Assembly (NCBI GenBank): GCA_913056365.1
Contig: CAJXLT010000001.1
Coordinates: forward strand, 124,001-188,000
Reading direction: 5' to 3'
Length of the DNA: 64,000 nt
Source: an uncultured Paenibacillaceae bacterium
GTDB lineage: Bacteria > Bacillota > Bacilli > Paenibacillales > K13
Under the pieces are notes generated by a model. It did no database searches and was not told the DNA's origin. It worked only from the letters and a program-made list of their open reading frames with translations. Both the position numbers and the translations under genes were made by a program. Of the stretch, positions 3,287 to 5,181 are shown piece after piece; the stretch's first letter is position 1; every line of letters begins with the position of its first letter.

Positions 3287-3315
3287 TTGACACGATACCT
3301 CCTCCATGCTACCAT
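3287..3315 (+). promoter_or_regulatory. Promoter P1 of the ABC-F leader
   Basis: A perfect -35 TTGACA (3287-3292) and a -10 TACCAT (3310-3315) are separated by exactly 17 bases. Transcription would start near 3322, a few bases before the ribosome-binding site of the first leader ORF, leaving a leader of about 395 nt in front of the ABC-F gene. The stretch 3008-3286 upstream holds no convincing gene. Confidence 0.7.
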
Positions 3316-3347
3316 TTGTGTATTCTCGAATAGGAGGCTCGTCATCT

Positions 3348-3374
3348 ATGCTGCATTCCATGCGTATTCGATAA
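3348..3374 (+). CDS. Leader peptide MLHSMRIR (ErmD-leader-like, macrolide-sensing candidate)
   Basis: The ORF has eight codons: ATG 3348, product MLHSMRIR, stop TAA 3372-3374. A strong ribosome-binding site TAGGAGG (3331-3337) lies ten bases upstream. The peptide matches the first eight residues of the ErmD leader (MTHSMRLR, from memory) at six positions and carries the Arg-x-Arg pattern at which macrolide-bound ribosomes are known to stall. An hairpin with a T run follows eleven bases after the stop. I infer that it senses macrolides and controls the downstream ABC-F gene. Confidence 0.7.
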   Translation: MLHSMRIR

Positions 3375-3384
3375 GCTGGCAATC

Positions 3385-3421
3385 AAAAAGCGGATTTTCC
3401 ACCACGACATGTGGGCTTTTT
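3385..3421 (+). terminator. Attenuator-like hairpin after the first leader ORF
   Basis: AAAAAGC (3385-3391) is the exact complement of GCTTTTT (3415-3421), and CCAC (3399-3402) pairs with GTGG (3411-3414), leaving a seven-base bulge. The 3' arm ends in T5. Its position just after the leader ORF stop fits a conditional transcription terminator. The bulge makes the fold weaker than a textbook terminator. Confidence 0.5.
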
Positions 3422-3519
3422 CGAGCTGCTTGTGTTTACGTATGCAGATATAGATCAGGAGTGGCATTGCTTATGACAGTGATGCTGTCTTTCGATGTAG
3501 CCTCGTGCGTAAATGAATG

Positions 3520-3559
3520 CAGATGTAAGCCCGCCTACCGGACTTGTATCTGTTTTTTT
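3520..3559 (+). terminator. Second leader terminator hairpin
   Basis: CAGATGTAAG (3520-3529) pairs with CTTGTATCTG (3543-3552), with two G-T pairs. An inner CCG/CGG stem is present and seven T follow (3553-3559). It lies inside the ABC-F leader, so readthrough here would be needed for expression from P1. A possible second promoter overlaps it (TTGTAT 3544, 16 bases, TATAAC 3566-3571). Confidence 0.65.
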
Positions 3560-3624
3560 GTTGCCTATAACTAGTCGGTAGTGAGCGTTTGTTGTCTTAA
3601 CATCGGTAAAAGGAGCGGGTTGCA

Positions 3625-3648
3625 ATGGGCTGGTTATACTTCACTTGA
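3625..3648 (+). CDS. Second leader peptide MGWLYFT
   Basis: This is a seven-codon ORF with stop TGA 3646-3648 and a good ribosome-binding site AAAAGGAG (3608-3615) nine bases upstream. It ends two bases before the CTCCCT element that can pair with the ribosome-binding site of the ABC-F gene. I know no named counterpart of this peptide; the role in translational attenuation is inferred from its position. Confidence 0.55.
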   Translation: MGWLYFT

Positions 3649-3650
3649 TT

Positions 3651-3707
3651 CTCCCTTCTTAAATCGCAGGACATCCTGCGAATAGAAGACTGCGATTTTT
3701 GAGGGAG
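3651..3707 (+). promoter_or_regulatory. Alternative hairpins hiding the ABC-F ribosome-binding site
   Basis: AAATCGCAG (3661-3669) pairs perfectly with CTGCGATTT (3690-3698), and outside it CTCCCT (3651-3656) pairs with AGGGAG (3702-3707), which is the ribosome-binding site of the ABC-F gene. A competing perfect hairpin CGCAGGA/TCCTGCG (3665-3671 / 3674-3680) uses the same bases and would free the site. A ribosome stalled on the second leader ORF would cover the 3651 arm and favour the open form. Confidence 0.7.
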
Positions 3708-3717
3708 GGTACTACAC

Positions 3718-5181
3718 ATGAAACCATTGATAAAAGCGAAGAATATTTACGTGGAATATATGGGACGGGAAGTCCTCGATATCGAAAATTTAGAACTGTA
3801 TGCTTATGATCGTATCGGATTGGTCGGTGCGAATGGGGCGGGGAAGAGCACATTGATCAAGGTGCTATTAGGTGAAATACCGTTGCAAGAAGGCAGTATT
3901 GTTAGCGAGGGACGCTTTGCCCATGTGCCGCAACTGGATGAACCTGACACCGAGAAGATGAACGACTTCGCATTGTTTGGCAAGATGGGCGTCATCGACA
4001 AATGGAATCAACACCATCGGAGTGGCGGAGAAGCAACGAGGTTGAAGATCGCGCAGGCATTGTCAGACGAGGTGCTCGGGATTATGGCGGATGAGCCCAC
4101 GTCACATCTAGATCGCGAAGGCATCGAAGTCGTGATCAACCAATTCAAGCAGTTCTCCGGTGCCTTGCTCGTTATAAGTCATGACCGCTACTTGCTGGAT
4201 CAAGTCGTCGATAAAATTTGGGAATTGAAGGATGGGACAATCACCGAGTATTGGGGCGGCTACTCTGAGTACTTGTCTCAACAAGAGCAAGAGCGGCGAA
4301 GCCAGACCGAGCAGTTCAAGCAGTGGAGCGCAGAACGAGAACGGTTGGAGAAAGCCATAGCGGAGAAACAGAATCAAGCGCGGAAGATGGAGAAGAAGGC
4401 AAGAGCTTCAAATAGAAAAAATACAGAAAGCGGCGGCCGCCTCGGTCATCAGAAATCAACAGGATCGAAGCAGAAGAAGCTTCACCAAGCCGCTCGTCAT
4501 ATGGAACAACGCATTGAAGCGCTTGGCAAGCTGGAAGCACCGGAAGCAATGCGTACGATTCGATTCCGACAGAGCCAAGCCCTTGCCCTTCACAACCCAT
4601 TCCCGATTATCGGAGATGAGGTTTGCAAACAAGTCGGAGACCATATCCTATTCGATAAGGCGTCCTTCCAATTTCCGCTTGGCGGCAAAATTGCGATAAC
4701 AGGAGCGAACGGAACCGGGAAATCCACGCTGCTCCAGATGATTCTCGATTGCGAAGTCGGCATTACCCTGTCTCCCAAAGCAAAGCTAGGCTATCTGGCA
4801 CAAGACGGTTATAAGCACTTGCCGGAGCAGAACATGTTAGCGTTCATGCAGGAGAGCAGTGATTACCCGGTATCCGAAGTGCGTGCGGTATTGGCCGCAA
4901 TGGGGTTTGCCCAGCAGGATATCCGCAAGCAATTGTCTGTATTGAGCGGCGGGGAGATCATCAAGCTGCAGCTGGCGCACATGCTGCTTGGGCGATACAA
5001 CATTCTGCTCTTGGATGAGCCGAGTAACTACCTTGATATCGTTACGGTGGAAGCCCTGGAACAGTTGATGCGGGACTATGCAGGAACGATCCTATTTGTC
5101 TCGCATGATAAGCGCCTTGTAGACAACGTAGCGGATATCGTGTATGAGATCAAGGACAGGAAGATTACCCGATTAGACTAA
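3718..5181 (+). CDS. ABC-F type ribosomal protection protein, Msr-like
   Basis: This soluble protein of 487 residues has two ATPase domains and no membrane segments. Domain 1 has Walker [10 protein letters not shown] (about 38-46), signature RSGGE (about 102) and Walker [11 protein letters not shown] (about 124). A long charged linker (about 195-300) is the antibiotic resistance domain of this class. Domain 2 has Walker [10 protein letters not shown], signature LSGGE and Walker [12 protein letters not shown]. Length and the segment [10 protein letters not shown] before domain 2 resemble Msr(A) (about 488 residues) more than Vga or VmlR; that comparison is from memory. Such proteins enter the ribosomal E site and displace bound antibiotics. 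Its leader points to drug-induced expression. Which drugs it protects against cannot be read from sequence. Confidence 0.88.

Follow-up and report, generated by a model that had tools for sequence, protein, structure and literature searches.

The question raised by this locus is whether one sensor or two stand between the promoter and the ABC-F gene in the window, by which we mean the whole stretch of 64,000 nt that was analysed. A preliminary description had proposed that ribosome stalling on one short upstream ORF, MLHSMRIR (uORF1), switches the gene on. This proposal is partly supported; stalling there alone should not be enough, as a second upstream ORF, MGWLYFT (uORF2), intervenes before the gene together with its own terminator and a hairpin that blocks the Shine-Dalgarno (SD) site. 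We consider it probable that the leader is a macrolide-inducible double attenuator with two sensors in series (AND logic) and that this tandem was generated by loss of a mef gene. The features on which this reading draws were located as follows.

3287..3315, + strand: promoter, TTGACA-17-TACCAT with TG ahead of the -10 element, kept upstream of uORF1 in relatives
3332..3337, + strand: SD site of uORF1, AGGAGG, from the sequence and aligned in relatives
3343..3457, + strand: long sensor stem of 44 pairs in the window, homologous to R1/R2 of mef(E)
3348..3374, + strand: uORF1, MLHSMRIR*, of the MefAL/ErmDL type by pattern and conservation, with +x+ at R6-I7-R8
3378..3395, + strand: IR1, arm just 3' of the uORF1 stop, a candidate antiterminator that could base-pair with terminator 2 at its 3' arm and U-run
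3461..3488, + strand: small hairpin in the position of mef(E) R3/R4, with about 63% of cells paired
3519..3559, + strand: terminator 2, a stem plus T7 homologous to R5/R6 of mef(E), assigned by conservation and homology
3548..3565, + strand: IR2, partner of IR1
3610..3615, + strand: SD site of uORF2, AAGGAG
3625..3648, + strand: uORF2, MGWLYFT*, of the MsrDL type
3649..3658, + strand: anti-SD arm, which pairs with the ABC-F SD in the MFE fold of the pre-gene stretch
3661..3700, + strand: terminator 3 and switch, in which arm A (AAATCGCAG) pairs with C (CTGCGATTT, then T) in the OFF state or with B (CCTGCGA) in the ON state
3701..3709, + strand: ABC-F SD site, which the OFF fold sequesters
3718..5181, + strand: Msr-family ABC-F ribosomal protection protein, 487 amino acids, by NF000168 and PDB relative

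The ABC-F protein scored 679.6 bits with NCBIfam model NF000168 over its full length, just under the cut-off of 680 and far above the Vga model, and its best solved relative was MsrE (5zlu). The consensus promoter reported previously was present, with the -35 element at 3287-3292, a 17-nt spacer and the -10 element at 3310-3315. With a score of 10/12, this was the top promoter-like site between positions 2500 and 6500 of the window, and a transcript start near 3322 would be expected from it. For 34 of 36 relatives, promoter-match scoring detected a site of at least 9/12 just 5' of uORF1, a count that includes one locus (L084) whose best site lies inside mef and is not a leader promoter.

The strong ribosome-binding site and the eight-codon ORF of the preliminary description were likewise found at 3332-3337 and 3348-3374 (codons ATG CTG CAT TCC ATG CGT ATT CGA TAA). 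Short ORFs with an SD site and no more than a +x+ motif were about as frequent as chance would give, with 1 in the window versus 0.75 per random window; the pattern MxHSM[RK]x[RK] exceeds chance and was found in none of the SD-preceded short ORFs of 40 random windows. A search of 399 genomes of the same order for an SD site followed by MxHSMRxR yielded 19 matches in 18 genomes, and the reversed-pattern control yielded none. All 19 matches were located ahead of a macrolide-resistance gene (10 Msr ABC-F genes, 8 Mef pumps and 1 Erm gene). Three of the non-Msr downstream genes were compared with NCBIfam models and were identified as Mef(A)-like with 605 bits (L128), Mef(B/C)-like (L126) and Erm, exceeding the cut-off (L131), and the remaining Mef calls were made by clear sequence similarity. 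Synonymous and nonsynonymous changes in codons 3 to 8 of uORF1 numbered 154:78 in frame and 39:147 and 0:186 out of frame; as the sequences are related, these counts and those given below for uORF2 are descriptive. By this comparison, uORF1 is conserved at the protein level. The ORF had the form of the MefAL/ErmDL type, comprising an SD site, at least 8 codons and a peptide resembling MTHSMRLR or MTASMRLR with R-x-R, and its leader RNA had the corresponding layout of a long stem and then an intrinsic terminator. The reading of this leader as a macrolide sensor is well supported by these likenesses. An apparent MWFTLCA peptide in place of uORF1 at two loci (L094 and L098) was rejected as an artefact of permitting only ATG starts, since a GTG start yields VVHSMRLR/K in place.

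The RNA structure of the front half was examined in an alignment of 30 leaders. The long stem, small hairpin and terminator 2 (70 pairs in total) had 80.0% of cells paired, versus 33 to 48% when the structure was slid along the alignment, and 26 pairs exhibited double-sided changes compared to 12 to 16 in the slid controls. For the terminator 2 helix, 93.8% of cells were paired and 6 pairs had double-sided changes. Cognate IR1-IR2 arms paired at -5.6 kcal/mol versus -4.4 kcal/mol for swapped arms (6/2000 permutations), a comparison in which the kinship of the sequences was left in, and this pairing was weak in several relatives. Distal inverted repeats take part in regulation of mef(E) (PMC4335068), and IR1 and IR2 appear to be the same repeats. 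The hairpin with a T run in the preliminary description does exist at 3385-3421 (AAAAAGCGG...CCAC/GTGG-GCTTTTT) but forms the tip of the long stem (3343-3457), and its T run lies mostly within the stem, paired with an A run in nearly all relatives. A role for this hairpin (3398-3421) as the terminator was rejected: its mef(E) homologue is the R1/R2 stem, and the terminator of that leader, at which termination has been demonstrated experimentally, is the distal R5/R6, equivalent to 3519-3559 in the window (PMC4335068).

At the gathering threshold, no Rfam match was obtained in the window. An E-value search brought up RF02862, 'Enterococcus sRNA 1300', which matched 3353-3562 over the full model length with 31.5 bits and an E value of 2.4e-5, below the gathering cut-off, and this was its only match in the genome. 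With the same model, the mef(A) leader of L160 (1373-1603) reached 277 bits. RF02862 is catalogued as an sRNA in Rfam, whereas here it coincides with a mef-type attenuator. The family corresponds to a mef(A)-type attenuator leader, which reassigns this Rfam 'sRNA' to an attenuator, and the catalogued sRNA is probably the terminated transcript of that leader.

The back half of the leader contained a second hairpin (3649-3709) immediately 3' of uORF2, with a 3' arm leading into T5 and the SD site of the gene. Among 34 back leaders, arm A could pair with B in 99.6% and with C in 98.4% of cells, and these two pairings are mutually exclusive; the sequence of this region is almost invariant, and covariation there says little. 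Synonymous and nonsynonymous changes in uORF2 numbered 255:164 in frame and 15:323 and 105:246 out of frame. The encoded peptide ends in HWYFFI* in most relatives, and is MRWLFFI* in a sister genome and MYLIFM* in mefA/msrD elements. As in the MsrDL type, in which a hydrophobic or aromatic peptide runs up to the stop codon about 70 to 100 nt ahead of an Msr ABC-F gene, MGWLYFT* is at -93, and it is followed by a homologous switch (ATCGCAGG...CCTGCGA...TGCGAT) with an intrinsic terminator. A full response by MsrDL requires residues L3 and I4 and the UAA stop codon, and a UGA stop reduced induction (PMC10314930). uORF2 of the window keeps the hydrophobic residues in kind and has a UGA stop; it departs from both the HWYFFI* consensus and MYLIFM* with UAA. 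Overall, sequence comparison indicated that uORF2 and the hairpin at 3649-3709 are a homologue of the MsrDL leader of mefA/msrD.

Both halves of the leader were similar in DNA to mefA/msrD (mef(E)/mel) of the Mega and Tn1207 elements, represented here by L160, with the front half resembling the mef(A) leader. In those elements, MefAL (MTASMRLR) and its attenuator precede mef, while MsrDL (MYLIFM) and its own attenuator precede msrD (PMC4335068, PMC10314930). The window, with MLHSMRIR and MGWLYFT as the two peptides, has in common with them a single promoter, a homologous front leader (uORF1, long stem and terminator), a homologous back leader (uORF2, ATCGCAGG switch and terminator) and a homologous ABC-F gene. 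A mef pump separates the attenuators of mefA/msrD, whereas in the window mef is absent, the attenuators abut, terminator 2 ending about 65 nt before uORF2, and the ABC-F gene is all that remains. The earlier identification of an ErmD-like macrolide leader before an ABC-F gene was thus borne out by homology as to the ErmD/MefA type, but the closest kin are the mef(A)/mef(E) and msrD leaders rather than ermD alone. Leaders of erm(D)/erm(K) (ErmDL, MTHSMRLR...) also combine a +x+ peptide with transcription attenuation but control an rRNA methylase and lack a second sensor, and their RNA has no detectable homology to mef(E) (PMC4335068). The Staphylococcus msr(A) leader (MTASMRLK) resembles the window in having a +x+ uORF ahead of an Msr-type ABC-F gene; a second uORF between that leader and the gene was not found. 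vmlR and other ABC-F genes are also under ribosome-mediated attenuation, which for vmlR acts at transcription and translation according to work cited in PMC10314930; the likeness lies in this mode of control, and their leader peptides are different.

Conservation of the tandem was evident in the closest loci (ABC-F 61 to 74% identical), as both uORFs were present in all 37 with sufficient upstream sequence, the window included. Their positions ranged from about -340 to -450 for uORF1 and from about -90 to -117 for uORF2, apart from two loci (L112 and L164) with uORF1 further off and mef remains in between. In one of these (L164, genome G337), a frameshifted mef lies between uORF1 and uORF2, with msr after them, and in the other (L112, genome G387) the intervening mef is internally deleted. 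Further scars comprised 50 bp of internal mef sequence (L081; 88%, E 8e-10), a 25-bp piece from the 3' end of mef (L082; 96%) and a mef 5' untranslated stretch (L083). When leader arrangements, in partly simplified form, were mapped onto a FastTree gene tree, a Fitch count gave 8 changes. The scars and the frameshifted and internally deleted mef genes show, at the level of sequence, repeated loss of mef among relatives. The spacer of the window, about 65 nt, has no recognisable mef scar, and hence the history of its own lineage is inferred from these relatives, which suggest that its tandem too arose through loss of mef between the leaders. A reverse case was observed in two genomes (G126 and G269; L129 at ~1880-2060, and L130), in which the leader, mef and a uORF2-like stretch are retained and msr is reduced to its first codons. 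In a distant Msr clade (about 40 to 47%; L016-L029, L107, L113 and L147-L158), two uORFs were also present, one MTHAMRLRFLPLNR-like and the other MMTLLFY or MQFLLFF, and some of these loci have a mef-like gene upstream. Genome G066 (L011/L165) has a front terminator and no uORF2 before msr, on a contig that begins within the leader.

From this anatomy, we infer stalling, drug specificity and AND logic as follows. Transcripts from a single promoter would carry about 400 nt of leader before the Msr-type ABC-F gene. Without drug, RNA polymerase would be halted at terminator 2 (3519-3559), giving transcripts ending at about 3559, and escapees would be halted at terminator 3 (3661-3700), at about 3700, the stem of which would also hide the SD site of the gene. 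With a macrolide, a ribosome stalled on uORF1 (Arg6-Ile7-Arg8) would open the base of the long stem, and IR1 would then block terminator 2; a second ribosome stalled at the uORF2 stop codon would keep arm A off C and the anti-SD off the SD. Only both stalls would allow the ABC-F gene to be transcribed and translated. Several observations weigh against this model, namely the divergent peptide and UGA stop of uORF2, the RF02862 score below the gathering cut-off, the lack of a mef scar in the spacer of the window and the weakness of IR1-IR2 pairing in several relatives. The attenuator mechanism of mef(E) is known by experiment (PMC4335068), ErmDL stalls with the Leu7 codon in the P site (PMC8298421), and MsrDL stalls at the stop codon, the term 'double-lock' having been suggested for msrD (PMC10314930). 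Among these homologues, MsrDL needs cladinose but ErmDL does not, and ketolides should therefore release the first lock and not the second; the tandem is thus predicted to respond to a narrower range of inducers than uORF1 would by itself. Placement of msrD behind two attenuators has been proposed to reflect the cost of leaky MsrD (PMC10314930). In mefA/msrD, the order of genes in the operon might by itself account for the second lock; the absence of mef from several lineages with scars, in which both locks are still conserved, favours selection for the double lock itself. Each half was already known, and no report of a mef-less tandem was found in the open-access literature; what is new is the retention of the proposed 'double lock' after loss of the pump, in a form testable in one short leader.

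The alternatives differ in which half of the leader is held to matter. It is unlikely that only uORF2 functions and that the front half is left over from the mef gene that was lost: uORF2 is proximal to the gene and never replaced, 8 of 36 relatives have an altered uORF1 and mef has gone, but uORF1, the promoter, the long stem and terminator 2 are kept with compensatory changes in mef-less relatives, and the sole good promoter precedes uORF1. The converse, in which stalling on MLHSMRIR alone lets polymerase past the hairpin at 3398-3421 and turns the gene on, would accord with conservation of uORF1, with the single MTASMRLK leader of Staphylococcus msr(A) and with the front terminator without uORF2 in G066 (L011). 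Against this stand the conservation of uORF2 and terminator 3 across the close loci, the position of the T run mostly within the stem and the distal location of the proven terminator in the homologous leader, and we judge this reading to be slightly less likely again.

Independent (OR) control, with an internal promoter ahead of uORF2 making the front half irrelevant to the gene, is very improbable and the least likely of these alternatives. Weak promoter-like matches of at least 9/12 were detected before uORF2 in 3 of 34 spacers; their position is not conserved, no such match precedes uORF2 in the window itself, and spacers are as short as 43 nt. An internal promoter was rejected on these grounds, and because no conserved promoter lies between the two halves, series, AND-type logic is predicted. 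It is only a little less improbable that the leader senses a lincosamide, pleuromutilin or streptogramin and not macrolides. Such drugs elicit a response from other groups of ABC-F genes, and MLHSMRIR and MGWLYFT are variant peptides for which macrolide specificity is a prediction, but the gene belongs to the Msr family, in the macrolide/streptogramin B group, and Mef and Erm genes have this same leader in front of them.

The 8 relatives with altered uORF1 lacked +x+ and had MVHSMRLW, MFLLFV, MFFPVV or M[IV]PRIW, with the RNA stem retained, and at L089 and L090 a compensatory stem change was found beneath the altered codons. It is possible, though we advance this tentatively, that the front switch is a cassette in which the sensor peptide is swapped and the RNA switch kept, and that the tandem is a two-input gate with an evolving first input. 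MIPRIW may be an undescribed drug-arrest peptide, because it recurs with other synonymous codons (ATGATACCAAGAATATGG versus ATGATTCCACGTATTTGG), and as the only leader found, before msr genes of Clostridium. A search for M[IV]PRIW across the phylum yielded 0 of 398 genomes. MFLLFV, MFFPVV or MVHSMRLW replaced uORF1 at L089, L090, L091, L092 and L096. The MIPRIW/MVPRIW mini-ORF occupied the uORF1 slot of L012, L099 and L104 and was also detected at about -100 in L038-L042 and L054, so that such mini-ORFs precede msr-type genes in two unrelated RNA contexts.
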